From a virus, in IMG/VR virus record IMGVR_UViG_3300050821_004356, positions 47,568-111,567 of that record: a stretch of DNA of 64,000 bases. One strand, given 5' to 3'. Shown here piece by piece: positions 1 through 58,627 of the stretch. A program made the position numbers and the translations under genes. The notes under the pieces were generated by a model, which made no database searches, had not been told where the DNA came from, and saw only the letters and a program-made list of their open reading frames with translations. Position 1 is the first letter of the stretch; each line of letters starts with the position of its first letter.

Positions 1-833
1 ACCTCTGTTGGACGATAGTATTTCGGGTCTATCGCGACATATGGACGCCAGTTCATACCAAGATAACCGAAAGCTTCATCGAGAAAATCTCGCACCGAAT
101 GCGTCTCACCGGTGGCGATAACGAAGTCATCCGGAGTCTGTTGCTGCATCATCAAATACATCGCTTCGACGTAGTCCCCGGCGAACCCCCAGTCACGTTT
201 GGCATCCAAATTACCGAGAACAAGTTCGTTTTGAAGACAGCGCGATATGCGGACAGCTGCTTTAGCAATTTTTCGGGTCACGAATGTCTCGCCACGTCTC
301 GGGCTTTCATGATTAAAGAGAATTCCATTGCAAGCAAAGGTACCGTATGCCTCGCGGTGATTTATTACTGTCCAATAAGCGAACTGTTTAGCGATGGCGT
401 ATGGGCTACGAGGATGAAACGGGACGGTCTCATCAACAGCTGCCCCATAAATCCCACCGTATAATTCACTAGAGCTTGCTTGATAAAACTTAATGCCCTT
501 CCCTTTAATAGCCTCTAGGATATTAAGAGTTCCTATAGCAGTGGATTCGGCCGTGTAAACCGGGATGTCGAACGAAACTCTAACATGCGATTGAGCGGCC
601 AAGTGGTAGATTTCATCCGGCTTTACTGTGTTGATGATATTCGTTGTCGAACTGCCATCAGTAACATCCCCATAATGCAAGTATAGGCGGTCGAATATGT
701 GATCGATGCGCTCGGTATTAATGCTGCTCGACCGGCGGATGATACCATGCACATCGTAGCCTTTTGACAGTAATAGCTCGGCGAGGTACGATCCATCCTG
801 ACCTGTAATGCCAGTGATAAGAGCTCTCTTCAT
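1..833 (-). CDS. gmd: GDP-mannose 4,6-dehydratase (partial, 3' end off window)
   Basis: Converts GDP-mannose to GDP-4-keto-6-deoxymannose, the entry step to GDP-fucose, GDP-rhamnose and related sugars; a cytoplasmic short-chain dehydrogenase. From the ATG at 833 the product opens [20 protein letters not shown], the GxxGxxG nucleotide site with the TGQDGSYL signature of Gmd, and later shows a YAIAK (YxxxK) catalytic motif. About 277 codons are visible; the end lies beyond the left edge. The start overlaps the stop of the fucosyltransferase gene (ATGA), so both are probably translated together. It likely supplies the sugar donor for the two transferases next door, for virion or host surface glycans. 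Confidence 0.93.
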
Positions 834-22347: not shown

Positions 22348-22547
22348 GCCTTGCTCACTCCCTCGATTTCGATTTCGGTGTCGATGATGTCACCGGGTGC
22401 TTCCCACAATCTGTTAAAGCTGTTTTTCATTTCACGGGCCTTTGTTAGAGCTTCTTCTAAAGAAGTCGCGCCTTCCATCTCGGCGTAGAAATAAACATTG
22501 GCTTTCACTTGGACTTGAAACTTCGGCTTGTTTTCTTTTTTACTCAC
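22344..22547 (-). CDS. Hypothetical 67-aa protein
   Basis: Not recognised. The GTG at 22547 is preferred because GGAGAG lies four bases upstream and it overlaps the previous stop; an in-frame ATG at 22559 lacks a binding site. The product pattern (FQVQVKANVYFYAEMEG) suggests a small beta-alpha-beta fold. Confidence 0.62.
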   Translation of the reverse strand: MSKKENKPKFQVQVKANVYFYAEMEGATSLEEALTKAREMKNSFNRLWEAPGDIIDTEIEIEGVSKA

Positions 22548-24202
22548 TAGGCTCTCCATTTATTCGCGTAGATTGTGATTAGCGATCTCTTGCCATTCGG
22601 ATACGTCACGATATGCGTGTGCGTCCAATTGCTCGGACCTTTTGTGTAATCCCAGCGCAACTTACTAGTTGTGCCCGCAACGTACAAGCCATTGTATATG
22701 CCGGTGGCGTGTGTGTGTGCTGTGTTGGCCTTGCGTGCCATCTTAGATAGATTCTCAGGCGTTCCGAATCGTCCCGCAGGGCCGAGGTGACCGTGCATTC
22801 CGTTTTCGATCTTCTTACCGCAAGTCTTAAATGGCTCGTCGGTCAACAAGAACTTTGTCTTAGCTTTGTAACCGCCATACTCGCGCAGCGCATATTCAAG
22901 CACGTTGATGTCGCGAACCATCTTCGGATTGGCTGTGCGAGCGCGAGACTGTTCGTCAGTAACACCATTGCGAATCTCTTTGTACAGATACTTTTGTAGG
23001 TCAAGAAATATTTCGGTGTTGGGAGGGTCCTTCCGATAGTCGTATTCTCGGAGCCACTTCTTAATCCACGCGTCGTCATGGTTTGAATCTACGATAATGG
23101 TCTTCGAGAACGGGCGTTCGTAGCGATCTAATAACTTGACTGTATCGATCAACTCGTTGTCTAGCTTATGATATCCACGAAGCCAGGTATGAAATTTCTC
23201 GTGATTCGTTTTATACTTGCGCTGATGTGGGTTGACTGCCGCGCCTTCCATTACGTCATGCAAGAATTGAAACTTTGGCTGAAGCGCGTCGACCATTTCG
23301 AGTGAAGTTTTGACTACGTTCGGGTCGGCAAAGACGCCATGCAAGTCACCGTGCGTGATTGCCTCGACGCGATTGCCCTTCGTGATATGACCGTTGTCCA
23401 CGATAATATCTAAGTCTTGGATTGTGCCCTTCTCATCTTCGTTCAACTGGCGTACCCACCAGTTACCATCTGAGTTCACTTCGACCAGGAGCCCACCGTA
23501 AATGTGGTGAAACTCTGCGATCACGCCTTCGCGCTTCTGAATATAGTTGCGCTGCGTCACGGTGCCAGTCGTATAGTTCAGCTTCACGCCTTCACCTTGC
23601 ATCGTTGCGATAGATCGCATTGCTAACTTAGCATGAGGAAAGATTGCCGACGCACGGCCTGTATATGATTCGAGTCCAGCCAGGGGATTGACGGCGGTTG
23701 GCAGGATGTTCATTTCTCCACACCAAACTAGACCTGGTGCGAGCTCAATACGTTCATCGTTGATGTATTTTGTTATGAACGGATCGTACCACAGTTCCGT
23801 TTCCTTGTCTGCTGCCTTACCACGCTTCACGCTCAGCTTGCCATACGCATTCTGATTGTACGTGAAGGTGCCTACAATAATTTCAGCGTTGTAATATTCA
23901 GCTAATGTCAGCAAATTTTGCCACGCAGATTTGTGTAAGTGCGTATTATTTTGGGCGGATGTTAGAATGTATCGGCGAACTTCGCCTTTCTTGGGTAGGG
24001 TGCGTTTGACGGACTTTGTACCTTCCTCGGAGCCCGCTGCAATAGGTTTGTCTAACTTACCAAGCGGTGTTAGCTTGCGGCGTACAGACGAACGGCTGAT
24101 GCCGAGCTCTTTTGCGGTAGCGCGGATGTTACCTGCGTTTCTTTCAAAAGCTGCTAAGACATCTTCCGGCGACTTTCTATCTGCTTTAGCGACTACTGTC
24201 AT
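22547..24202 (-). CDS. HTH plus calcineurin-like metallophosphoesterase protein
   Basis: 551 aa from the ATG at 24202 (ATGA overlap with the previous gene). An N-terminal Fis-like helix-turn-helix (NAGNIRATAKELGISRSSVR, residues 22-41) precedes a large domain with metallophosphoesterase motifs: HGDLHG near 309, VDSNHDD near 393, GMHGHLGP near 473 and AHTHATG near 498. This could be a nuclease or phosphatase targeted to DNA. A function in DNA entry or host DNA breakdown is possible but not shown. Confidence 0.68.
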   Translation of the reverse strand: MTVVAKADRKSPEDVLAAFERNAGNIRATAKELGISRSSVRRKLTPLGKLDKPIAAGSEEGTKSVKRTLPKKGEVRRYILTSAQNNTHLHKSAWQNLLTLAEYYNAEIIVGTFTYNQNAYGKLSVKRGKAADKETELWYDPFITKYINDERIELAPGLVWCGEMNILPTAVNPLAGLESYTGRASAIFPHAKLAMRSIATMQGEGVKLNYTTGTVTQRNYIQKREGVIAEFHHIYGGLLVEVNSDGNWWVRQLNEDEKGTIQDLDIIVDNGHITKGNRVEAITHGDLHGVFADPNVVKTSLEMVDALQPKFQFLHDVMEGAAVNPHQRKYKTNHEKFHTWLRGYHKLDNELIDTVKLLDRYERPFSKTIIVDSNHDDAWIKKWLREYDYRKDPPNTEIFLDLQKYLYKEIRNGVTDEQSRARTANPKMVRDINVLEYALREYGGYKAKTKFLLTDEPFKTCGKKIENGMHGHLGPAGRFGTPENLSKMARKANTAHTHATGIYNGLYVAGTTSKLRWDYTKGPSNWTHTHIVTYPNGKRSLITIYANKWRA

Positions 24203-24885
24203 GGCTTTATGATCTCCCGGCTGACAAATCCAGCAACAAATCCGATGCCAAACCATTTCATTTTACCTTTACGCGCGTTTGCTTTCTCTGCATTTAGCAC
24301 TTTAGCGTCTGTATCAATCTGGTCTTTTAAGACTTTCTTGTCTTCGACTATGATGTTCGCTTGGTCAGCTATCGTTGCTGTTTGATTTTTGATTATTCCG
24401 TTTTGCTGTACGACCGTTTGTGCGTCCGCTATGCCTTGGTCTAGCCTTGTGACTATATCGACAGCTAATGGCAACGGCACTATCAAATCCTGGGTCGAAT
24501 CTAGAGTGATTGTCCCTTGTTTAAATCCCGTAATAGTCTCTATGCGATGTCCTAAATCCGGCGCAGGCAGGGCCTTGTCGTGTATAATTTGGACTTTTGC
24601 TTGTGACTGTGTTTGGGATATTGTTAATAGGAAAGCTGCGTTATCTTTGTCGCGTTGGGCCTGGTTGGCTGCGAACAGATTCGCAAGTTGTGTGCTGTGG
24701 TCCTTCTCGACGGCCAGTGCTTGCTCGGCCTGGTTGGCTCTCGCGGTCTCGATGGCCGCATATTTGGATTCAAAGAGGTAAACGCCCGAGAGCAGCGCTA
24801 TGCCTAGCAGAATGTATAGCACGGCGTGGTGCGCGGTTATCCAAACGCCTGCCTTGGATTCGATACTTTGTATTTCAGTTGTCAT
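24199..24885 (-). CDS. Membrane-anchored coiled-coil protein
   Basis: 228 aa. One membrane helix near residues 20-40 (HAVLYILLGIALLSGVYLF), a long helical coiled-coil with many Gln/Ala repeats, and a short C-terminal glycine-rich hydrophobic segment (WFGIGFVAGFVSREI). The layout resembles an inner-membrane spanin, but no partner o-spanin was found. Starts right after the endonuclease stop, behind the repeated leader at 24887-24926. Confidence 0.55.
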   Translation of the reverse strand: MTTEIQSIESKAGVWITAHHAVLYILLGIALLSGVYLFESKYAAIETARANQAEQALAVEKDHSTQLANLFAANQAQRDKDNAAFLLTISQTQSQAKVQIIHDKALPAPDLGHRIETITGFKQGTITLDSTQDLIVPLPLAVDIVTRLDQGIADAQTVVQQNGIIKNQTATIADQANIIVEDKKVLKDQIDTDAKVLNAEKANARKGKMKWFGIGFVAGFVSREIIKP

Positions 24886-38489: not shown

Positions 38490-38565
38490 GGTGTCCGTAG
38501 TGTAGTGGCTAGCACGCGGGCCTGTGAAGCCTTAAGGTTGGTTTCGAATACCAAGGGACACCCCA
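38490..38565 (+). tRNA. tRNA-His (GTG)
   Basis: Loop CTGTGAA gives anticodon GTG. Extra 5' G opposite C73, the tRNA-His mark. T-loop TTCGAAT, encoded CCA. Lies before the array promoter. Confidence 0.88.
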
Positions 38566-38584
38566 TATTTTTAAAGATAAGTGC

Positions 38585-38613
38585 TTGACAAAGTTTTAAG
38601 ATCGCGATACAAT
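38585..38613 (+). promoter_or_regulatory. tRNA-array promoter
   Basis: TTGACA (38585-38590), 17 bases, TACAAT (38608-38613): the best promoter in the window, directly before the tRNA cluster. Confidence 0.87.
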
Positions 38614-38625
38614 GTTTTTGTAAAT

Positions 38626-38704
38626 CGAGGAATGGGGAAGTCTGGCCGTTCCCGCTGCTTTCGGAAAGCAGAGATCGTTGATTCGAATTCAACTTCCTCG
38701 ACCA
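38626..38704 (+). tRNA. tRNA-Pro (CGG)
   Basis: Acceptor CGAGGAA/TTCCTCG, loop TTCGGAA (anticodon CGG, codon CCG), T-loop TTCGAAT, CCA encoded. Confidence 0.88.
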
Positions 38705-38706
38705 GT

Positions 38707-38780
38707 CGGGCGTTCTGATAGTGGTAGTCTCCGTGCTTTGGAAGCATGTGGCGTGTGTTCGATTCACACATGCCCGACCA
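38707..38780 (+). tRNA. tRNA-Pro (TGG)
   Basis: Acceptor CGGGCGT/ATGCCCG, loop TTTGGAA (anticodon TGG, codon CCA), T-loop TTCGATT, CCA encoded. Only two bases after the previous CCA. Confidence 0.87.
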
Positions 38781-38793
38781 TTTTATTAAGTTT

Positions 38794-38851
38794 GGACCCA
38801 ACATGTCTGATCATGACAGACGCTCGCGCGCTGGTAAGGGCACCGGGTCCA
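38794..38851 (+). ncRNA. Mini tRNA-like RNA with CAT loop
   Basis: 58 nt: GGACCC/GGGTCC stem plus A, an anticodon-like arm GTCTG-ATCATGA-CAGAC with CAT at positions 34-36, and a short GGT...ACC arm. No D-arm, no CCA. Confidence 0.45.
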
Positions 38852-38852
38852 A

Positions 38853-38904
38853 TTGCGATAACCTTAAAATTCTGACCGGTACGGTTTAGAAGCCGGTATC
38901 GCAA
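38853..38904 (+). ncRNA. Hairpin RNA unit
   Basis: TTGCGATA pairs with TATCGCAA; inside, TTCTGA pairs with TTTAGAA. A compact two-stem unit between the mini tRNA and a pseudoknot. Confidence 0.35.
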
Positions 38905-38905
38905 C

Positions 38906-38940
38906 GAGCCTCGGCGTCGGCTCACTAAAATATAGACGCC
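38906..38940 (+). ncRNA. H-type RNA pseudoknot
   Basis: GAGCC (38906-38910) pairs with GGCTC (38919-38923); loop bases GGCGTC (38913-38918) pair with GACGCC (38935-38940). L1 is 2 bases, L3 an A-rich 11 bases, a feasible geometry. Confidence 0.55.
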
Positions 38941-38969
38941 AGGATTTAAGTCCAGCACGGAGAAGCTAT

Positions 38970-39080
38970 TGTGTTGGCGGATCAGACGGAAATGTGGGTT
39001 CGAATCCCACGGGCTATAACAGGTGAGTCAGCCGTGTATACGGCACCTGAGCCTTTAGTGCAATGGTAGCACGCCGTCAA
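38970..39080 (+). tRNA. Putative circularly permuted tRNA
   Basis: The 3' half comes first: anticodon 3' stem GACGG (38985), T-arm GTGGG-TTCGAAT-CCCAC, acceptor GGGCT (39011). A hairpin CAGGTG...CACCTG follows, then the 5' half: AGCCT (39050), D-arm GTGC-AATGGTA-GCAC and anticodon 5' stem CCGTC (39074-39078), then the AATTTT linker. CCGTC/GACGG and AGCCT/GGGCT pair only if the halves are swapped. Anticodon not resolvable. Confidence 0.55.
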
Positions 39081-39089
39081 ATTTTCTAT

Positions 39090-39174
39090 TCCCGAGTGGC
39101 GGAATGCATACGTAACGCGTTTAGACCGCGTCGCTCGAAAGAGATTGTGGGTCCAAGTCCCACCTCGGGAACCA
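39090..39174 (+). tRNA. tRNA-Leu (TAG)
   Basis: Acceptor TCCCGAG/CTCGGGA, loop TTTAGAC (anticodon TAG), long variable arm, T-loop TCCAAGT, CCA encoded. Confidence 0.9.
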
Positions 39175-39181
39175 ATTTTGT

Positions 39182-39256
39182 GGCTCTCTCGTTCAATGGA
39201 GAGGACGTTCGGTTTCTACCCGAACAATGTCGGTTCGATTCCGACGGGGGCTTCCA
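39182..39256 (+). tRNA. tRNA-Arg (TCT)
   Basis: Loop TTTCTAC (anticodon TCT, codon AGA), D-arm GTTC...GGAC, T-loop TTCGATT, CCA encoded. Acceptor has three G-T pairs. Confidence 0.87.
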
Positions 39257-39262
39257 AGTTTT

Positions 39263-39338
39263 GGGTCTATCGTCCAAAGGGACAGGGCTCGGGTTTCCTA
39301 AACCCGCAATCACGGTTCGATCCCGTGTGGACCCTCCA
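39263..39338 (+). tRNA. tRNA-Arg (CCT)
   Basis: Acceptor GGGTCTA/TGGACCC, anticodon arm CGGGT-TTCCTAA-ACCCG (anticodon CCT), T-loop TTCGATC, CCA encoded. Confidence 0.88.
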
Positions 39339-39344
39339 GTTTAT

Positions 39345-39420
39345 GGGCTTCTCGTCTAACAGGACAAGGCTCTGGTCTTCGAAACCAGCTATCGCGATTC
39401 GAGTTCGCGGAGGCCCTCCA
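39345..39420 (+). tRNA. tRNA-Arg (TCG)
   Basis: Acceptor GGGCTTC/GAGGCCC, anticodon arm CTGGT-CTTCGAA-ACCAG (anticodon TCG), CCA encoded. Similar in sequence to the flanking Arg tRNAs. Confidence 0.88.
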
Positions 39421-39425
39421 GCTTT

Positions 39426-39501
39426 GAACTTGTCATCTAACGGGACAAGGTGCAGCCCTGCGAAGGCTGATATCACGGTTCGAGTCCGTGCAGGTTCACC
39501 A
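39426..39501 (+). tRNA. tRNA-Arg (GCG)
   Basis: Acceptor GAACTTG/CAGGTTC, anticodon arm CAGCC-CTGCGAA-GGCTG (anticodon GCG), T-loop TTCGAGT, CCA encoded. Fourth Arg tRNA in a row. Confidence 0.88.
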
Positions 39502-39509
39502 TTTTTAAT

Positions 39510-39594
39510 CCGCTGCTGGCGAAACGGCAGACGCATCCGCCTCAAGAGCGGACGCCTAAACAGCGTGAAGGTTCGAATCCTTCGCGGCGGACCA
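39510..39594 (+). tRNA. tRNA-Leu (CAA)
   Basis: Acceptor CCGCTGC/GCGGCGG, anticodon arm TCCGC-CTCAAGA-GCGGA (anticodon CAA), long variable arm, T-loop TTCGAAT, CCA encoded. Confidence 0.9.
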
Positions 39595-39597
39595 AGT

Positions 39598-39684
39598 TCT
39601 GTGGGTGGTCCCGCGCACCGCGCGGCTCTGTGATGAAGCTAGACTAGTCACAGGATGAGTGGTGAGATTCCACGACTTCCCAGA
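39598..39684 (+). ncRNA. tRNA-like cloverleaf RNA without tRNA features
   Basis: Closing stem TCTG(T)GGG/TCCCAGA; arms CCGCGC-ACC-GCGCGG, CTGTGA-14-TCACAG and GTGG-TGAGATT-CCAC. Cloverleaf shape but no TTCRA T-loop, no 7-base anticodon loop, no CCA. Flanked by the AAGTT and ATTTTC linkers of the array. Confidence 0.52.
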
Positions 39685-39691
39685 TTTTCAA

Positions 39692-39782
39692 TTGTCGGTT
39701 GCGAAGGTTCGTGGCAGAGTCTTATAAACTCTTCGGGCCAGATAAGCCTTGCCGGAAAGATCGTTACTTTCATCGACAACCA
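39692..39782 (+). tRNA. Atypical tRNA, anticodon TAT (Ile?)
   Basis: Acceptor TTGTCGG/TCGACAA with encoded CCA; anticodon arm AGAGT-CTTATAA-ACTCT (TAT). It has a 22-base variable region, a T-arm GAAAG-ATCGTTA-CTTTC without TTCRA, and a minimal D-arm GCGA-AGGT-TCGT. May be a decayed or specialised tRNA. Confidence 0.55.
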
Positions 39783-39786
39783 ATTT

Positions 39787-39870
39787 GAGCGTGTGGCGGA
39801 AAGGCATACGCAGGGCACTTAAAATGCCCCGTCGAAAGACATGAGGGTCCGAATCCCTCGGCGCTCACCA
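39787..39870 (+). tRNA. tRNA-Leu (TAA)
   Basis: Acceptor GAGCGTG/GGCGCTC (last pair mismatched), anticodon arm GGGCA-CTTAAAA-TGCCC (anticodon TAA), long variable arm, T-loop TCCGAAT, CCA encoded. Confidence 0.88.
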
Positions 39871-39875
39871 AGTTT

Positions 39876-39949
39876 GCATGAATCGACAAGTGGTAAGTTA
39901 GCTGTTTGCAAAACAGCCATCAGTGGTTCGATTCCACTTTCATGCTCCA
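39876..39949 (+). tRNA. tRNA-Cys (GCA)
   Basis: Acceptor GCATGAA/TTCATGC, anticodon arm GCTGT-TTGCAAA-ACAGC (anticodon GCA), T-loop TTCGATT, CCA encoded. Confidence 0.92.
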
Positions 39950-39951
39950 AG

Positions 39952-40312
39952 TTTGGGCACCTGACACCTAACAGTGGCAGGGGAAAGTCCAAAACGTTTT
40001 CGCACGGTCAACGAAAGACGGTGCTACATTTTGGTAGCGTAGACGAACGCGGCGAGAAACCCGAGAGGGCTATAAGCCGAGGAAATTCAGGCCACATCTC
40101 AACATCGAACGGTGGAAGCTGCCGGACGCGTAAGCGTACAAGTAAGGCTCGATACCGAAAGGTCATTCAAGTCGAGTAACTCTTTTCGGGTGTAAGCGCA
40201 AATAGGCTCTGAGAACTTGTTGAGTTTGATGAAGAGCGGGTAGCGTGCTTCGCGAAAGCGACTAGAGAGGAATGTTCGTTCTAGACAGAAGCCTGATTAT
40301 AGCGTCACCAAA
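39952..40312 (+). ncRNA. rnpB: RNase P RNA (phage-encoded)
   Basis: Catalytic RNA that trims tRNA 5' ends. About 361 nt, the usual bacterial size. Conserved landmarks in order: GGGGAAAGTCC (39980-39990, CR-I/P4), GTAAGG with CGAAAGGTCA in the specificity part, GCGCAAATAGGCTC (near 40197, CR-IV), GCGGGTAG (near 40236) with CTTCGCGAAAGCGACTAGA, and GACAGAAGCCTGATTATAG (40284-40302, CR-V). The ends pair as TTTGG/CCAAA (P1). The P15-like loop shows no GGT, so CCA pairing may be lost. It lies among tRNAs with the same linkers, so it probably matures the array. Confidence 0.85.
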
Positions 40313-40323
40313 ATAATTTTCAA

Positions 40324-40399
40324 GTGTCTGTAGCTCATTCAGTAGAGCACTCGGCTCTTACCCGAGGGGTGGTTGGGGCAGAGCCAACCAGACGCACCA
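40324..40399 (+). tRNA. tRNA-Lys (CTT), atypical T-loop
   Basis: Acceptor GTGTCTG/CAGACGC, D-arm GCTC...GAGC, anticodon arm CTCGG-CTCTTAC-CCGAG (anticodon CTT), CCA encoded. The T-arm is GTTGG-GGCAGAG-CCAAC, lacking the usual TTCRA loop. Confidence 0.78.
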
Positions 40400-40401
40400 A
40401 T

Positions 40402-40476
40402 GGAGTGCTAGTGTCAAAGTAGCACAGCGGCCTTTTAAGCCGACGAGTGTTGGTCCAAGTCCAACGCGCTCCACCA
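40402..40476 (+). tRNA. tRNA-Lys (TTT)
   Basis: Acceptor GGAGTGC/GCGCTCC, loop CTTTTAA (anticodon TTT), T-loop TCCAAGT, CCA encoded. Confidence 0.9.
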
Positions 40477-40485
40477 ATTTTCTGT

Positions 40486-40561
40486 AGCCTGTTAGCAAAC
40501 TGGCCGTATGCACCTCGCCTACACCGAGGCCGGAAGAGTTCGATTCTCTTACGGGCTACCA
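40486..40561 (+). tRNA. tRNA-Val (TAC), C at position 33
   Basis: Acceptor AGCCTGT/ACGGGCT, anticodon arm CCTCG-CCTACAC-CGAGG (anticodon TAC), T-loop TTCGATT, CCA encoded. Position 33 is C instead of the near-universal U. Confidence 0.82.
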
Positions 40562-40566
40562 ATTTT

Positions 40567-40656
40567 CGATTGCCCGGTTGCTTACGGCGACGGTGTAGAT
40601 GAGTGTGTCGGAACCGAGAGGCCGTAAATACTCCACGGCGGCATTCACCGCAATCG
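40567..40656 (+). ncRNA. Structured RNA with acceptor-like stem
   Basis: CGATTG/CAATCG closing stem, a long TTACGGC...GCCGTAA arm containing TCGGAACCGA, and a CGGCGGCATTCACCG 3' part. No tRNA loops and no CCA; followed by the AATTTTC linker. Confidence 0.45.
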
Positions 40657-40670
40657 AATTAATTTTCTGT

Positions 40671-40745
40671 GGCGATGTCATCTAGTGATTAGGATGCTTG
40701 CTTCTCAAGCAAGTCACGCGGGTTTGAATCCCGCCGACGCTACCA
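40671..40745 (+). tRNA. tRNA-Glu (CTC)
   Basis: Anticodon arm CTTGC-TTCTCAA-GCAAG (anticodon CTC), T-loop TTTGAAT, CCA encoded. One A-A mismatch in the acceptor. Confidence 0.87.
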
Positions 40746-40754
40746 AGTTTCAGT

Positions 40755-40828
40755 GCCGCTATCTGCTATGGATAGGCAACGAGACTTTCAATCTCGTAGA
40801 CAGGGTTTGAGTCCCTGTAGCGGTACCA
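40755..40828 (+). tRNA. tRNA-Glu (TTC)
   Basis: Acceptor GCCGCTA/TAGCGGT, anticodon arm CGAGA-CTTTCAA-TCTCG (anticodon TTC), T-loop TTTGAGT, CCA encoded. Confidence 0.9.
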
Positions 40829-40838
40829 ATTTTACAGT

Positions 40839-40914
40839 GGGCAGTTAGTGTTAAATGGGAGCACGTGTCGCTTGCACCGACAAAGTGAGGGTTCGAATCC
40901 GTCACAGTCCACCA
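40839..40914 (+). tRNA. tRNA-Ala (TGC)
   Basis: Anticodon arm TGTCG-CTTGCAC-CGACA (anticodon TGC), T-loop TTCGAAT, CCA encoded. Single mismatches in acceptor and T-stem. Confidence 0.85.
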
Positions 40915-40925
40915 ATTTTTCCTGT

Positions 40926-41001
40926 TGTCGCGGAGCACATGTGGACGGGCGCTCGCTCGATAAGCGAGAGGTAGGTGGTTCGAATCCACCGGCGACAACC
41001 A
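40926..41001 (+). tRNA. tRNA-Ile (GAT)
   Basis: Acceptor TGTCGC/GCGACA, anticodon arm CTCGC-TCGATAA-GCGAG (anticodon GAT), T-loop TTCGAAT, CCA encoded. Confidence 0.88.
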
Positions 41002-41017
41002 ATTTTTGCGGTGACAT

Positions 41018-41260
41018 ATGACGATAGCAGACGCAGCATCAGTTGCGGCACTAGCAGTCGATTTGATTGCCTTGTGGTTCCTGATTGGGATTTGGAAAGA
41101 TGATCATGCGATGAGAGTCGCATCGGAAGAGTCTTTGAAGGCCCAGTTAGAGTATCTTGGATTGCGCCGTAAATGGTACGAAGGCCGCACCAAGAAAAAG
41201 GACGAAAAGAATGTCGCTCAGTCTAGACCAGAAGATGGCACTGACGCGAACAGTCTGTAA
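41018..41260 (+). CDS. Small membrane protein inside tRNA array
   Basis: 80 aa. One membrane helix (residues 8-25, SVAALAVDLIALWFLIGI) followed by a charged coiled-coil tail (LGLRRKWYEGRTKKKDEK). It interrupts the tRNA array. Overlaps the next membrane peptide by 50 bases in another frame, an arrangement seen in lysis gene pairs. Confidence 0.62.
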   Translation: MTIADAASVAALAVDLIALWFLIGIWKDDHAMRVASEESLKAQLEYLGLRRKWYEGRTKKKDEKNVAQSRPEDGTDANSL

Positions 41261-41315
41261 CATTCTTGGAGTCATCATCTCAATCATCTACGTTGTGTGG
41301 GTGATGAGTAAATAA
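41211..41315 (+). CDS. 34-aa membrane peptide overlapping 41018 gene
   Basis: ATG at 41211; reads MSLSLDQKMALTRTVCNILG then VIISIIYVVWVMSK: a polar start and one C-terminal membrane helix. Overlapping frames and nested membrane spans recall lysis gene pairs, but there is no other lysis gene here. Confidence 0.5.
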   Translation: MSLSLDQKMALTRTVCNILGVIISIIYVVWVMSK

Positions 41316-41324
41316 ATTTTCAAT

Positions 41325-41411
41325 TGTAGGGTCGACTAGCGGCCGATGTCGCGGGTCTCATAAGCCCGATGCGAAAGCACACCGTGGGTTCGAATCCCAC
41401 CTCTGCAACCA
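41325..41411 (+). tRNA. tRNA, anticodon CAT, with long variable arm
   Basis: Acceptor TGTAGGG/CTCTGCA, D-arm GAC...GTC, loop CTCATAA (anticodon CAT), 15-base variable region with TGC-GAAA-GCA, T-loop TTCGAAT, CCA encoded. CAT normally means Met or lysidine-Ile, both with short variable loops, so this class II form is unusual. Confidence 0.8.
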
Positions 41412-41418
41412 ATTTTGA

Positions 41419-41493
41419 GCGAGGCTGATGTTAGTGGTAGCATGTCAGTCTTCCAAACTGAACGGACGAGTTCGAGTCTCGTGCTTCGCTCCA
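41419..41493 (+). tRNA. tRNA-Gly (TCC)
   Basis: Acceptor GCGAGGC/GCTTCGC, anticodon arm TCAGT-CTTCCAA-ACTGA (anticodon TCC), T-loop TTCGAGT, CCA encoded. Confidence 0.91.
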
Positions 41494-41498
41494 ATTTT

Positions 41499-41572
41499 GC
41501 TTTGTTAGTTCAACGGTAGAACGCGTCCTTGGTAAGGATGAGGTAAAGGTTCAATTCCTTTACGAAGCTCCA
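41499..41572 (+). tRNA. tRNA-Thr (GGT)
   Basis: Acceptor GCTTTGT/ACGAAGC, loop TTGGTAA (anticodon GGT), T-loop TTCAATT, CCA encoded. Confidence 0.91.
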
Positions 41573-41579
41573 GTTTTGA

Positions 41580-41655
41580 GCACGGCTCATACAGCGGCCT
41601 AGTATGCGAAGCTTGTACCTTCGACACGTTGGTTCAAATCCAGCGCTGTGCTCCA
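41580..41655 (+). tRNA. tRNA-Thr (TGT)
   Basis: Acceptor GCACGGC/GCTGTGC, anticodon arm CGAAG-CTTGTAC-CTTCG (anticodon TGT), T-loop TTCAAAT, CCA encoded. Confidence 0.9.
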
Positions 41656-41665
41656 ATTTCTAGAA

Positions 41666-41747
41666 CGTGGAACCGCGAGTCTGTGGAATGGCGGATAGTG
41701 CAGACCTGAATAATGCTCCGGTACTCCGGAGACGCGAACGCCCCACG
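41666..41747 (+). ncRNA. Structured RNA with acceptor-like stem
   Basis: CGTGG/CCACG and inner CGCG/CGCG enclose arms GTCTG...CAGAC and CTCCG-GTACTC-CGGAG. No tRNA loops, no CCA. Occupies a tRNA-sized slot between two Thr tRNAs. Confidence 0.47.
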
Positions 41748-41757
41748 AGATTTATGA

Positions 41758-41831
41758 GCACTGCTAGTCTAGTGGCAGGACACTCCCCTCGTAAGGCAGA
41801 GGCAACTGTTCGATTCAGTTGCGGTGCTCCA
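41758..41831 (+). tRNA. tRNA-Thr (CGT)
   Basis: Acceptor GCACTGC/GCGGTGC, loop CTCGTAA (anticodon CGT), T-loop TTCGATT, CCA encoded. One mismatch in the anticodon stem. Confidence 0.87.
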
Positions 41832-41834
41832 AGT

Positions 41835-41894
41835 TTTGTGCTGTGACATAAAACACATCGGTGAGAGGCGTCCATAGACCCACCGAGGCACAAA
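41835..41894 (+). ncRNA. 60-nt structured RNA with acceptor-like stem
   Basis: TTTGTGC/GCACAAA (7 bp) closes arms TGTG-ACATAAAA-CACA and TCGGTG...CACCGA. Two-armed, no CCA, flanked by AAGTTTT linkers. Confidence 0.5.
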
Positions 41895-41904
41895 AGTTTT
41901 CTGA

Positions 41905-41978
41905 GCGATGTTGGTATAGTGGTAGCACGAGACCTTGCCAAGGTCTAGGCACCGTTTCGATTACGGTACGTCGCTCCA
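41905..41978 (+). tRNA. tRNA-Gly (GCC)
   Basis: Acceptor GCGATGT/ACGTCGC, anticodon arm AGACC-TTGCCAA-GGTCT (anticodon GCC), T-loop TTCGATT, CCA encoded. Confidence 0.91.
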
Positions 41979-41987
41979 ATTTTCTGT

Positions 41988-42076
41988 GGATGGTTAGCTC
42001 AAGCGGCAACGACACTTGGCTGTAAACCAAGCGGTCCTAGCGACCTTCCGAGGTTCGAGTCCTCGACTATCCACCA
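41988..42076 (+). tRNA. tRNA-Tyr (GTA)
   Basis: Acceptor GGATGGT/ACTATCC, anticodon arm CTTGG-CTGTAAA-CCAAG (anticodon GTA), long variable arm, T-loop TTCGAGT, CCA encoded. Confidence 0.92.
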
Positions 42077-42087
42077 TAATTTTCTAC

Positions 42088-42175
42088 TGGGGTGTGGCTC
42101 AATTGGTACAGCACCTGACTGTTAATCAGGCAGAGTTAACGCTCATTATAGGTTCGAATCCTATTGCCCCAGCCA
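42088..42175 (+). tRNA. tRNA-Asn (GTT), with long variable arm
   Basis: Acceptor TGGGGTG/TGCCCCA, anticodon arm CCTGA-CTGTTAA-TCAGG (anticodon GTT), T-loop TTCGAAT, G73, CCA encoded. The 17-base variable region (GAG...CTC) is unusual, since tRNA-Asn is normally class I. Confidence 0.86.
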
Positions 42176-42183
42176 TTTTAAAC

Positions 42184-42261
42184 GGAGATGTCGCGTAGAG
42201 GCCTATCGCACTCCCCTGTCACGGGAGATCATCGTGGGTTCGAATCCCATCATTTCCGCCA
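42184..42261 (+). tRNA. tRNA-Asp (GTC)
   Basis: Acceptor GGAGATG/CATTTCC, anticodon arm CTCCC-CTGTCAC-GGGAG (anticodon GTC), T-loop TTCGAAT, G73, CCA encoded. Confidence 0.91.
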
Positions 42262-42269
42262 TTTTCAAC

Positions 42270-42344
42270 AGGTCGGTAGTGTAACGGTAACATCACGCAC
42301 TCCAAACGCGTCGGATGGGGGTTCGAGTCCCTCCTGACCTGCCA
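42270..42344 (+). tRNA. tRNA-Trp (CCA)
   Basis: Acceptor AGGTCGG/CTGACCT, loop CTCCAAA (anticodon CCA), T-loop TTCGAGT, G73, 3' CCA encoded. Closing anticodon-stem pair is A-C. Confidence 0.88.
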
Positions 42345-42352
42345 ATTTTTAC

Positions 42353-42443
42353 GGAAGGTTGACGGAACCTGGCTAACGTATAGGTTTGCTAAACCTAAGT
42401 CAACCGAAAGGTTGTTTGTGTTCAAATCACAAACCTTCCGCCA
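42353..42443 (+). tRNA. tRNA-Ser (GCT)
   Basis: Acceptor GGAAGGT/ACCTTCC, anticodon arm TAGGT-TTGCTAA-ACCTA (anticodon GCT), long variable arm, T-loop TTCAAAT, G73, CCA encoded. Confidence 0.92.
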
Positions 42444-42448
42444 TTTAC

Positions 42449-42532
42449 GGAGGATGCCGCTCAAGGGGGCAATCCGGTTTGAACCCGGAGGGCGCTGTAA
42501 GGCGCGGTGTTCGATTCATCCTTCCTCCTCCA
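42449..42532 (+). tRNA. tRNA-Ser (TGA)
   Basis: Acceptor GGAGGA/TCCTCC, anticodon arm TCCGG-TTTGAAC-CCGGA (anticodon TGA), long variable arm, T-loop TTCGATT, CCA encoded. Confidence 0.9.
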
Positions 42533-42534
42533 TA

Positions 42535-42612
42535 TTCTACGCTCGTGGCTGAAATGCCGTTTGGTGTAGACACACCCTAACGGGGACTGAGCACCGTCGC
42601 TAACAGTATAAA
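42535..42612 (+). ncRNA. Structured RNA resembling a remodelled tRNA
   Basis: GCTC...GAGC and CCGTT...AACGG stems with an inner GGTGT-AGAC-ACACC arm. GTGGCTGAAAT and TAGACAC recall the D-arm of a tRNA-Leu, but no anticodon or T-arm can be drawn. Possibly a decayed tRNA. Confidence 0.38.
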
Positions 42613-42625
42613 ATTGGGGCGACAT

Positions 42626-42699
42626 CCCTTGTAGGTGTAACGGTAGCACCTTCCGTTGAAGCCGGAAAGGACGTGGTTCAATTCCACGACTCGGGACCA
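42626..42699 (+). tRNA. tRNA-Phe (GAA)
   Basis: Anticodon arm TTCCG-TTGAAGC-CGGAA (anticodon GAA), D-arm GTGT-AACGGTA-GCAC, T-loop TTCAATT, CCA encoded. Two mismatches in the acceptor stem (CCCTTGT/ACTCGGG). Confidence 0.83.
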
Positions 42700-42707
42700 T
42701 TTTCAAT

Positions 42708-42783
42708 TGGGATGTAGTTTAACTGGCAAAATAGTCGGCTTTGAACCGACCAGATGAAGGTCCGAATCCTTCCGCCCCAACCA
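42708..42783 (+). tRNA. tRNA-Gln (TTG)
   Basis: Anticodon arm GTCGG-CTTTGAA-CCGAC (anticodon TTG), T-loop TCCGAAT, CCA encoded. One A-C mismatch in the acceptor. Confidence 0.88.
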
Positions 42784-42792
42784 ATTTTCAAT

Positions 42793-42868
42793 TGCCAAGT
42801 GGCGCAACTGGTAGCGCAGGCGGCTCTGAACCGCAAGGCTGATCGTTCGAATCGATCTTTGGCAACCA
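42793..42868 (+). tRNA. tRNA-Gln (CTG)
   Basis: Acceptor TGCCAAG/TTTGGCA, D-arm GCGC...GCGC, loop CTCTGAA (anticodon CTG), T-loop TTCGAAT, CCA encoded. Last tRNA of the array. Confidence 0.9.
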
Positions 42869-44772: not shown

Positions 44773-45846
44773 GTGTCTATTACTTCACAGCTTTTGACTG
44801 GCGCAAATTACGCGCTCAACGCGTATTCTGGTATCACGAACTCCGGTCTTACCGTTATTTCTGGCGGTAACATCGGGTCTTTCCCGACGTCGTCTATTAC
44901 AGGCTTCCCCCCAGGCCTGCTTTCTCCTCCAGCAGTTATAGACAACGCTGATTCGTTGCAAGCGCGTCTAGATGCTCTTTCCGCATACAATACGTTTGCG
45001 GCCCTCGCGTTTACTTCATTGGGTGCATCCTCAGTTAATCTCTCCGTATCTGGCAACGGCTCTTCGGCTTCGACTTACACTCCCGGTAACTACTCTGCAG
45101 GAACTAGCATGGATATTCCTACTAGTATCACACTAGATGCGCAAGGAAACCCGAACGCTGTGTTCATCTTTAAAGCAGGCAGCACAGTTACCCTTGAAAG
45201 CGGGGCCTCTGTTTTGCTCGTCAACGGAGCCGCAGCACAAAACGTTGTGTGGCTCGTAGGCACTTCATTCACGTCTATCTTTGCTGGCACATCAGTTATG
45301 GTCGGCAACATCTTGGCGCAAGCCTCTGCCACATTGGGCGGCGGTGTTCTAAGCGGTCGTGTCCTAGCAGGTCTAAACAATTCGAGCGGTGCGATTACTA
45401 TCGCGACTGCGCTTGCTTTGACAGTTCCAGTATCGGGCGGTGGGGTCGCTCCACCTCCTACGAGGGCTGGCGGTGCGGCTCAGTGTCTTATCTCTCAGAA
45501 TTTGGGAGCGTCGGTTTTGTTAGCTTGGCCGCAGAATAGTCCCGGAGTTCAAGGACAATTCTTAGACCTAGTCCAAATCGTTGACGAAGGTGGAAATTTT
45601 GTACTCAACGTCGACTTTAGCGGTGCTGTTCACTATCCCGCAATTCTACCAACTAATGGCACGAGAATCGGCCAATATCAAACGAGATTTGGTCTGTCTG
45701 GTAGTGGTCTTCCCGTAACTACACTTTCGCAAGTAATGCATGACGCTTTCACTAATCCACAATTTCTTGACATCATTCAAATAATCAATGTGGGAGGAAA
45801 TATCTCCTATTGGTGGAATTCCGAAGGCGTCGCGACCGGTTCCTAG
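44773..45846 (+). CDS. DUF3494 (ice-binding-like) virion or adhesin protein
   Basis: 357 aa, GTG start. Residues about 1-220 carry the DUF3494 pattern: SGGNIGSFPTSSITGFPPG, TYTPGNYSAGTSMDIPTSIT, LDAQGNPNAVFIFKAGSTVT and VNGAAAQNVVWLVGTSFTSI. This beta-solenoid family includes ice-binding proteins and cell-surface adhesins. A Pro-rich hinge near 223 leads to a separate 120-residue beta domain. No signal peptide is visible, so it is probably built into the virion. Ice binding itself cannot be judged. Confidence 0.82.
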   Translation: MSITSQLLTGANYALNAYSGITNSGLTVISGGNIGSFPTSSITGFPPGLLSPPAVIDNADSLQARLDALSAYNTFAALAFTSLGASSVNLSVSGNGSSASTYTPGNYSAGTSMDIPTSITLDAQGNPNAVFIFKAGSTVTLESGASVLLVNGAAAQNVVWLVGTSFTSIFAGTSVMVGNILAQASATLGGGVLSGRVLAGLNNSSGAITIATALALTVPVSGGGVAPPPTRAGGAAQCLISQNLGASVLLAWPQNSPGVQGQFLDLVQIVDEGGNFVLNVDFSGAVHYPAILPTNGTRIGQYQTRFGLSGSGLPVTTLSQVMHDAFTNPQFLDIIQIINVGGNISYWWNSEGVATGS

Positions 45847-56311: not shown

Positions 56312-58627
56312 ATGGCTCTTACTCAGGAAGAAGCACGAGAAAGAAATAGGAAGCGTCAAGAAAATTTCAGAGAGCGGAAGAAGTTGGCTGAGCAACGTTC
56401 AGCTGGTTTCGTCAAACCCGAAGTATCCGTAGATGCCGAGAAAGTTCTAGACGACCACGGTAAGAATTTGGAGTGGGCTCAAGAGCTAGATGCCACGGGT
56501 AAGCGTTATAAGAGTGAGTGCCGTACGTTAGTCGACCTACTGGCGATCTACGAAGGCGCGGATATCCTCGACAAAGAATCAGATGACGATGAAGAAGAGG
56601 ATAAGAAGAAAGGCAAAAAGAAAGAGAAGAGCAACCGCCCAGCACCTTTTCGTCAGCCTGTTAAGATTAGAGCAGTCCGATTCGAAGACGACAGCCTAGG
56701 TCAGGACCTTAAGGTTCAAGTTAATATCGATCCGAGCCAACTAGAGTACAAGACACTTAAAGGCGACGTAATAAATCTCAAGACGATGTTCGAAGTAAAT
56801 GAGATCGTATCATTCCGCCGATGGCTTGATCTTCGCGACAAAGGCCGTAAGGATTTATTCTGGCAAGGTCGTTTGTTGGGATGCAGCTTTTTCCACAATA
56901 CCCACCAGATGGTCTGCGATATGTTTGTCAAAAAGCAGTTTGACGGTTTGTATTTTGACGAGTATACCAAAGACGATATGCACGATATGATCGGCGTGCA
57001 GAAAAGATTTGCAAATGACGGCGTTACGCCTACCCGTACGATGTTGTTGTTCGCCCCTAGGTCCGGATACAAGTCGACCATAGATGGTGTAGACGCGGTG
57101 CAGTGGATGTTGAATTGTCCGGATATCCGCATCATGATCATGACGTCGGTTAAGAATTTGGCGAAGATGTTCATGATGGAAATCAAGTCTTACTTCTATT
57201 TGCCGAGGAAGGGGACTCCGACAGCTTTTCAGATTCTTTATCCTGAATATATCATCACAGGCATAGCAGGTAAATCCAAAGAACCGTTCCAGTGTCCAGC
57301 GCGAATGTTTCTTTCGAAAGAACCACATGTGTGGATTTCGTCATTGGATGCGTCGTCTGTTGGTTCTCGCTGCGATATTAGGAAGCTAGACGATATCGTA
57401 GAAGATAAAAACTCGGCTGAAGAAGAGTTGCGAGAAAACCTGAAAGAAAAAGTGAAGGCCACCAATAACCTAACCGAGCCTTGGGGCTTCACAGATGTCA
57501 TCGGAACCCGTTACTTCACCAAGGACTGGTACGGCGGTAGAATGTCCAAGGATGAGAATAATAACGAACCTGAGCCATATGCGTATTTGAGCATCTCGGC
57601 CTGGACGCCTAAGCCCGAGTATAAGCGCGCGTATGAACAGCTATTAAAAACTCCCGATGGTATGTTCCTAGTTACGGAACAAATGGTCGATTTGTGGTTT
57701 CCGTCTAAGCTGAGCTTCAGTAGACTTCGTTCTCTATTGAAGGAAAACAAAGAGCGCGGTTTCAAGAACCAGCAACTTAATATTGCGACCGATCCCAAAG
57801 AGCTAGATGTATTCGTCAACAACTTCGATCTAGAGAGTATGCGCGCGAGTACATGCCAGCTTAATGCCGCTCCGAAAGAAATGGAAGTCATTCAAACGTG
57901 GGACATTGCGTACAGCGAAAACCGCACATCTGACTTTTCCGTCGGCGCGACAATAGGAATTTTTAAAGATACACACAACCAACTCGGTGCCATTGTTTTA
58001 GACATGGTTTACGATAAGTGGAAATCTTCGGAACTAGCATCCCAGATGCTCGCGTTTTACGACAAGCACAAAGCGGTAGTCACTAAGATTTATATCGAAG
58101 AGGCAAACGGTGTAGGGTTTTTGATGGGTAACATTAAGAACCTAGCAAAGATTAGGGGCTCAGCTTTTGAGCACTTTACGCGTCTTCGCCCGGTAGACGT
58201 TAAACCGAACGCGAAGCAGAATCGCATTAAGGACCTAGAGTTCTTACACGCGAACGGCCGCTTGAAATTTGTATCCGGTGCTTGGATCGACGAACTCTAT
58301 AAACAGTTCATTGACTACAACGGTAAGAAAAGCAATAACTACCGCAAAGACGATATACCAGACGCGATATCGCTTGGTGTAATTTCGCATCTACCACCGA
58401 CAGCACTCCAATATGATCCGGACCCAAAAGAAGTTGAGAAGGAGCACGAGGAGCGGCAAGCAAGAGAGGTTCGTGACGGTTGGTATAATCGCATGCACGG
58501 CGGTCCTTCTCCTACAAAGCCAAAACCTGTGGAGACAGTAGAACCCGAATCGCTGTCGCCCCGAAACAGGGCATACGAGCAGTTATTAAAAATACTACCG
58601 CCAGGAATGAGGCGTAGAAGAAATTAA
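56312..58627 (+). CDS. terL: Terminase large subunit
   Basis: 771 aa. The packaging motor ATPase and nuclease. FAPRSGYKS near 249 is Walker A, RKLDDIVEDKNS near 357 Walker B with the catalytic acid, and QTWDIAYSENRTSDFSVG near 527 plus NYRKDDIPDAISL near 681 the RNase H-like nuclease acids. The first 220 residues are an added domain with an acidic Lys/Glu segment (SDDDEEEDKKKGKKK), making it longer than typical (450-650 aa). AAGGATAATGTA precedes the ATG. Confidence 0.92.
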   Translation: MALTQEEARERNRKRQENFRERKKLAEQRSAGFVKPEVSVDAEKVLDDHGKNLEWAQELDATGKRYKSECRTLVDLLAIYEGADILDKESDDDEEEDKKKGKKKEKSNRPAPFRQPVKIRAVRFEDDSLGQDLKVQVNIDPSQLEYKTLKGDVINLKTMFEVNEIVSFRRWLDLRDKGRKDLFWQGRLLGCSFFHNTHQMVCDMFVKKQFDGLYFDEYTKDDMHDMIGVQKRFANDGVTPTRTMLLFAPRSGYKSTIDGVDAVQWMLNCPDIRIMIMTSVKNLAKMFMMEIKSYFYLPRKGTPTAFQILYPEYIITGIAGKSKEPFQCPARMFLSKEPHVWISSLDASSVGSRCDIRKLDDIVEDKNSAEEELRENLKEKVKATNNLTEPWGFTDVIGTRYFTKDWYGGRMSKDENNNEPEPYAYLSISAWTPKPEYKRAYEQLLKTPDGMFLVTEQMVDLWFPSKLSFSRLRSLLKENKERGFKNQQLNIATDPKELDVFVNNFDLESMRASTCQLNAAPKEMEVIQTWDIAYSENRTSDFSVGATIGIFKDTHNQLGAIVLDMVYDKWKSSELASQMLAFYDKHKAVVTKIYIEEANGVGFLMGNIKNLAKIRGSAFEHFTRLRPVDVKPNAKQNRIKDLEFLHANGRLKFVSGAWIDELYKQFIDYNGKKSNNYRKDDIPDAISLGVISHLPPTALQYDPDPKEVEKEHEERQAREVRDGWYNRMHGGPSPTKPKPVETVEPESLSPRNRAYEQLLKILPPGMRRRRN

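Follow-up and report, generated by a model that had tools for sequence, protein, structure and literature searches.

Does a phage encode RNase P RNA among its own tRNA genes, and if so, what would the RNA do there? RNase P RNA is a textbook example of a cellular ribozyme, and we know of no report of one in any phage. The locus considered here lies on a 111.6-kb linear IMG/VR virus contig, of which we analyzed record positions 47568 to 111567 (the window, 64,000 nt, whose numbering is used below). An earlier note made from the letters alone had placed an RNase P RNA between tRNA-Cys and tRNA-Lys, with P1-type pairing of its ends and the conserved blocks in order. A local Rfam scan of the window matched RF00010 (RNaseP_bact_a) at 40031-40315 (90.0 bits; E = 4.8e-28; E = 2.2e-29 when the whole 111,567-nt virus record was searched), so that the covariance-model check was significant, although under the Rfam gathering score of 100 bits for this family. 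Accordingly, a default Rfam scan of the window reported tRNAs only and no RNase P RNA, and annotation pipelines would overlook the gene because 90 bits falls short of the cutoff. Five records of the same clade, recovered in T5-like pattern scans, scored above 100 bits against RF00010 (102 to 112 bits). The placement, end pairing, and block order proposed earlier were confirmed. The main proposal, that a phage encodes a bacterial type of RNase P RNA within its tRNA array, is very strongly supported by this match, by covariation, and by recurrence in 47 viral records. We regard it as nearly certain that this phage contig holds an RNase P RNA gene of bacterial type (class A).

The gene runs from P1 to P1' (Table 1) and is shorter than the ~361 nt (39952-40312) first assigned to it. 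That extent took GGGGAAAGTCC near 39982 for CR-I and P4; the motif sits within the 79-nt leader and is missing from the leaders of relatives, and we rejected it. The covariance alignment and the relatives place the true CR-I, GAGGAAATTCAGG, at 40079. P4, which had been predicted to pair strands near 39982 and 40285, does pair and covary, but its 5' strand lies at 40084-40091 and not at 39982. P1 is formed by UUUUGGU-A-GCGU (40029-40040) with 40302-40313, and P2 by 40042-40048 with 40274-40280. Upstream, the neighboring gene is tRNA-Cys(GCA) (39876-39949). Downstream, 10 nt separate the 3' end of the RNA from the tRNA gene at 40324, which is followed by tRNA-Lys(TTT) at 40402.

Table 1. Features of the RNase P RNA locus and its phage context (window coordinates)
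Feature	Position	Strand	Basis
T5 A1-like DNA transfer protein	22547..24256	-	phrog_1745, 2.4e-161; tblastn to annotated A1/DNA transfer proteins
33 tRNA genes, all one strand, CCA encoded in all	38491..42868	+	ARAGORN and Rfam
Leader between tRNA-Cys and RNase P RNA, containing the false CR-I	39950..40028	+	Comparison with relatives' leaders
Phage variant of class A RNase P RNA (285 nt, P1 to P1')	40029..40313	+	RF00010 match; covariation of 73 pairs, 16 homologues
CR-I and 5' strand of pseudoknot P4 (AAU[U]CAGG, 40084-40091, bulged U 40087)	40079..40091	+	Pairs with 40292-40298
P6 pseudoknot 5' strand, J5/7, UCAACA	40099..40104	+	Pairs with 40218-40223 (UGUUGA)
Remodelled P9-P12 specificity domain; internal loop CATTCAAG (40164-40171) in place of CR-II and CR-III	40126..40181	+	T5-like clade alignment; cellular-set columns
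P15 with L15/P16, no GGU motif	40206..40237	+	Covariation count; L15 comparison
P6 pseudoknot 3' strand, P16/17 loop	40218..40223	+	Covariation count
CR-V (ACAGAAGCCTGATTA) and P4 3' strand (CCUGAUU, 40292-40298)	40285..40299	+	RF00010, covariation, column conservation
Next tRNA downstream, Lys-like, anticodon read as CTT	40324..40399	+	RF00005, 43.7 bits; end and CCA read
Terminase large subunit, marks tailed phage	56312..58627	+	phrog_38, 5.5e-38; homologue in 18/19 clade records

We then asked whether the fold is maintained, using 16 aligned RNAs from the window's clade and a hand-drawn RNase P fold. Standard pairs filled 93.9% of cells, compared to ~36% in slid-strand controls, a count in which the fold is somewhat favored, since it was drawn from the window sequence. 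Changes on both sides were observed in 51 of the 73 pairs, with P4 and P6 included as pseudoknots, and the covariation score was 0.457, against 0.178 for shuffles (0/500 reached the observed value) and ≤0.096 for slid controls. P4 was 100% paired in the 16 phages, with 3/7 pairs changing on both sides: one position occurs as G-C, A-U, and C-G and another as A-U, C-G, and U-A. P6 was 92.7% paired, with changes on both sides in 5/6 pairs. Double changes in P2, P4, P6, P7, P9, and P11 are not explained by a fold drawn from the window, and the catalytic fold (P1-P5, P7-P11, P15/P16, and the P4 and P6 pseudoknots) is kept under selection. Scores under the Rfam gathering cutoff in much of the clade would be consistent with a gene in decay or carried by accident, derived from a host rnpB that was acquired with the tRNA genes and is now drifting; however, the massive covariation, the invariant catalytic blocks, and recurrence in phages of ~100 to 463 kb make such an origin very improbable. 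We ruled out this pseudogene or passenger reading on the covariation in 16 homologues.

The genes around the locus are those of a tailed phage. In addition to the terminase and A1-like genes, the contig encodes portal, DNA polymerase, primase, and helicase proteins, and we refer to its clade as T5-like because of this gene set, including the T5 A1-like DNA transfer protein. The terminase homologues in the clade were uninterrupted in 17 of the 18 records. The terminase shares only 27% identity with that of Tunturiibacter phage Tunturi_3 and gives no host prediction; the A1 homologues are spread over many hosts and likewise predict none. The window also contains an open reading frame with an ice-binding-like domain (44773-45846; PF11999, 1.1e-35) and a glycosyltransferase family 11 gene (830-1624; PF01531, 1.6e-30). 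Eleven other matches in the viral collection resemble cellular rnpB (~316 to 335 bits, ≤1 tRNA nearby), and we did not count them as phage RNAs. An assembly chimera or host contamination could thus be envisaged for the window's contig as well. This explanation has a negligible probability given that phage tRNAs flank the locus, terminase and portal genes lie on the same contig, and the phage RNAs group apart from the bacterial rows of a tree; the recurrence of the Cys - RNase P - Lys order on independent contigs rules it out.

How widespread are such RNAs among viruses? IMG/VR was scanned with patterns from the conserved blocks, and matches were then tested with RF00010 (E < 0.001). We counted 47 positive viral records as phage, some of them near-duplicates (the window and sets of 10, 19, 14, and 3). 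Three of 17 new matches to the specificity-domain pattern (L065, L069, and L073) had no RF00010 match and were dropped. The carrier records range from fragments up to 463 kb, representing phages of ~100 to 463 kb, with 10 to 69 tRNAs per genome in the 14 records counted. Same-strand tRNA genes were present within 1.1 kb on both sides of the RNA at 41 of 46 loci, on one side at 4, and on neither side at 1, and the Cys - RNase P - Lys order is common to independent contigs. At L049 (record G048), the 14.5 kb retrieved around the RNA contained no tRNA gene; the listed tRNA genes of this genome lie ~30 kb from it. RF00010 found no match in ten cultured phages, Bacillus phage G, XacN1, Myrna, and Atu_ph07 among them. 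Likewise, blastn of the window (tRNA matches only), five phage RNAs, and L071 against 50,697 phage records found no true phage with such an RNA, a search that divergent copies can escape. The sole match of the five-RNA search was AGRM01000002.1, a chromosome-like Salmonella enterica record of 691 kb that is filed among phages and carries a cellular RNase P RNA. Among plasmids, the matches were confined to short core stretches in large replicons. A quick tree built from the core, with long branches and a bacterial sample biased by the motif search, placed the 13 T5-like rows on one side of a branch (SH-aLRT 100) and 14 canonical-type phages in one group (88), with L007, L010, and L025 standing apart. 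The phage RNAs formed groups separate from the bacterial rows.

The setting of the gene suggests what it may act on. The count of more than 30 tRNAs given in the earlier note held: ARAGORN found 32 genes and Rfam added the one at 40324. Many of the array tRNAs are spaced 2 to 12 nt apart, and because of this tight spacing on a single strand, each needs a 5' cut. Four gaps in the array (39595-39692, 40562-40670, 41002-41324, and 42444-42625) matched no Rfam family at the searched threshold, and no HDV-like family was matched in the array scan. Within the last gap there is a weak tRNA-Sec-like match (42449-42528, 25 bits). The ends of the gap at 40562-40670 are complementary (GATTGC...GCAATC), and this segment may be another structured RNA. 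The leader upstream of the RNase P RNA contains a hairpin with a constant 7-nt loop, AACGAAA, and changing stem pairs, both here and in the leaders of L033, L063, L064, L066, L071, and L072; a CGTTT upstream of the hairpin could pair with the loop. A 15-nt segment of the leader, ACACCTAACAGTGGC (39964-39978), also occurs in the P19 region of the RNase P RNA of L068 (1714-1728), as a hairpin in both places. It is possibly a small mobile or protein-binding hairpin, and possibly a chance resemblance.

Next, we compared the two halves of the RNA with cellular RNase P RNAs. We took the columns that are at least 97% conserved among 94 cellular RNAs; within 40190-40299, the window keeps all of them apart from 40294 and 40296, both in P4, where the pairing partner has also changed and compensates the difference. 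The catalytic-domain residues of J5/15, J18/2, and CR-V are present in the window RNA. The specificity domain is different. Bacterial RNase P RNAs generally carry CR-II and CR-III, which contact pre-tRNA in known bacterial enzymes. In the T5-like clade, most of the conserved CR-II/CR-III columns (40140-40171) differ from the cellular set, whose conservation there is inflated, since it was partly chosen by the CR-II/CR-III pattern. The clade instead has a P11 stem, a P12 hairpin that varies, and the internal loop CATTCRAG. We therefore file the window RNA as a divergent class A variant and not as a typical member, and cleavage of tRNAs is not assured, because its clade is without the motifs that contact pre-tRNA. 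These data suggest that the rebuilt T-loop-recognizing domain of the T5-like clade confers a substrate recognition different from that of the host enzyme.

A more extreme case is L031 (~475-660, minus strand, in a phage tRNA array), a 191-nt RNA scoring 106.8 bits against RF00010 in which the specificity domain is apparently wholly absent. The domain is seemingly swapped for a short GGAC-GAAA-GTTC hairpin, and P1-P6 are readable. A pattern search of IMG/VR for further RNAs without a specificity domain returned L031 only. Such remodeling across the T5-like clade, with its conserved CATTCRAG loop, and the apparent loss in L031 would be expected if the RNAs had acquired other substrates, either non-tRNA or selected targets or phage tRNAs only. 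We consider this change of substrate unlikely, however, since canonical-type phage RNAs in similar arrays retain both CR-II and CR-III, and the location in arrays argues for tRNAs as the substrate.

A second proposed specialization concerned L15, which had been described as lacking the GGU motif that binds CCA. The absence was seen in the window RNA and in 17/17 RNAs of the clade. The suggestion that it would suit a fixed substrate set did not hold, since all 33 of the 33 tRNA genes encode CCA and a plain GGU is also missing from L15 in 53 of the 84 bacterial-set RNAs in which L15 is readable. Because so many bacterial RNAs share it, we do not treat this absence as distinctive or defining.

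The RNase P holoenzyme also contains a protein subunit, RnpA. No RnpA (PF00825) was detected in 44 phage records, a set that includes fragments, while the control was detected in 10/14 cellular genomes. Given that no phage-encoded RnpA was found, the phage RNA probably borrows that of the host, and the full independence from the host that had been envisaged for tRNA maturation is unlikely. Phages without their own RnpA, and a clade that has lost the CR-II/CR-III specificity motifs, could also be reconciled with a decoy, in which the RNA would bind host RnpA or pre-tRNA but not cleave, and so titrate or inhibit host RNase P. Preservation and covariation of the catalytic core (P4 with its bulged U, J5/15, and CR-V) speak against a decoy, as does the position of 41/46 loci inside the phage's own tRNA array, an odd place for an inhibitor of tRNA maturation; we judge it quite unlikely.

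We favor the interpretation that the RNA takes part in 5' maturation of the phage tRNAs together with host RnpA, which we consider likely from the array setting and the conserved core. The RNase P RNA would be transcribed together with the array tRNAs, and the layout suggests that the 5' cut of the next tRNA, 10 nt on, would free the ribozyme from the polycistronic transcript. The freed RNA would assemble with host RnpA, and the resulting enzyme would remove the 5' leaders from the phage's numerous, tightly spaced pre-tRNAs. The outcome could be faster tRNA maturation, or maturation sustained if host RNase P RNA were limiting or destroyed in infection. More tentatively, and with a good deal less confidence, these RNAs could constitute a phage lineage with its own substrate recognition, its specificity domain being remodeled or absent, that forms a hybrid with host RnpA, is dedicated to phage arrays, and is insensitive to host control or shut-off of RNase P.

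The catalytic half of a core enzyme of RNA processing is therefore encoded by some tRNA-rich viruses (~100 to 463 kb), which could in this way take charge of tRNA maturation. Their naturally altered, and once reduced, bacterial-type RNAs also provide material for studying the purpose of the specificity domain. A further question is whether host defense includes attacks on RNase P or on tRNA maturation. A survey of huge phages does not mention RNase P (PMC7162821), and our full-text search of an open library returned no paper describing an RNase P RNA in a phage.

Among known systems, bacterial class A RNase P RNA (RF00010, rnpB) shares with the phage RNA P1-P5, P7-P11, P15/P16, the P4/P6 pseudoknots, the bulged U, CR-I, CR-V, and J5/15. 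In contrast to it, the phage RNA is encoded in a tRNA array, has no linked protein gene, and scores under or near the cutoff; the T5-like clade is without CR-II/CR-III, and most of its members are without P18. Betaproteobacteria and other class A RNAs commonly contain the ACAGNGACGA...TGAAACG of the canonical-type phage RNAs, and many also are without a plain GGU in L15. However, the phage RNAs lie outside the bacterial rows in the tree, and the T5-like clade is further remodeled. The minimal (type T) RNase P RNA of Pyrobaculum, like L031, has a reduced specificity domain, but it is archaeal and cellular, whereas L031 is bacterial-type and phage-borne. The tRNAs of T4-type phages similarly need 5' processing, for which these phages depend on host RNase P RNA; they are not known to encode one. 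During T4 infection, the host rnpB RNA was reported to be relatively stable and was suggested to serve phage tRNA processing (PMC9697503). The nearest published idea is that of the theta ribozymes, which are encoded next to phage tRNA genes and were proposed to mature them; unlike the phage RNase P RNA, they are small, HDV-like, self-cleaving ribozymes of unrelated fold that act on tRNA 3' ends (PMC10879173).
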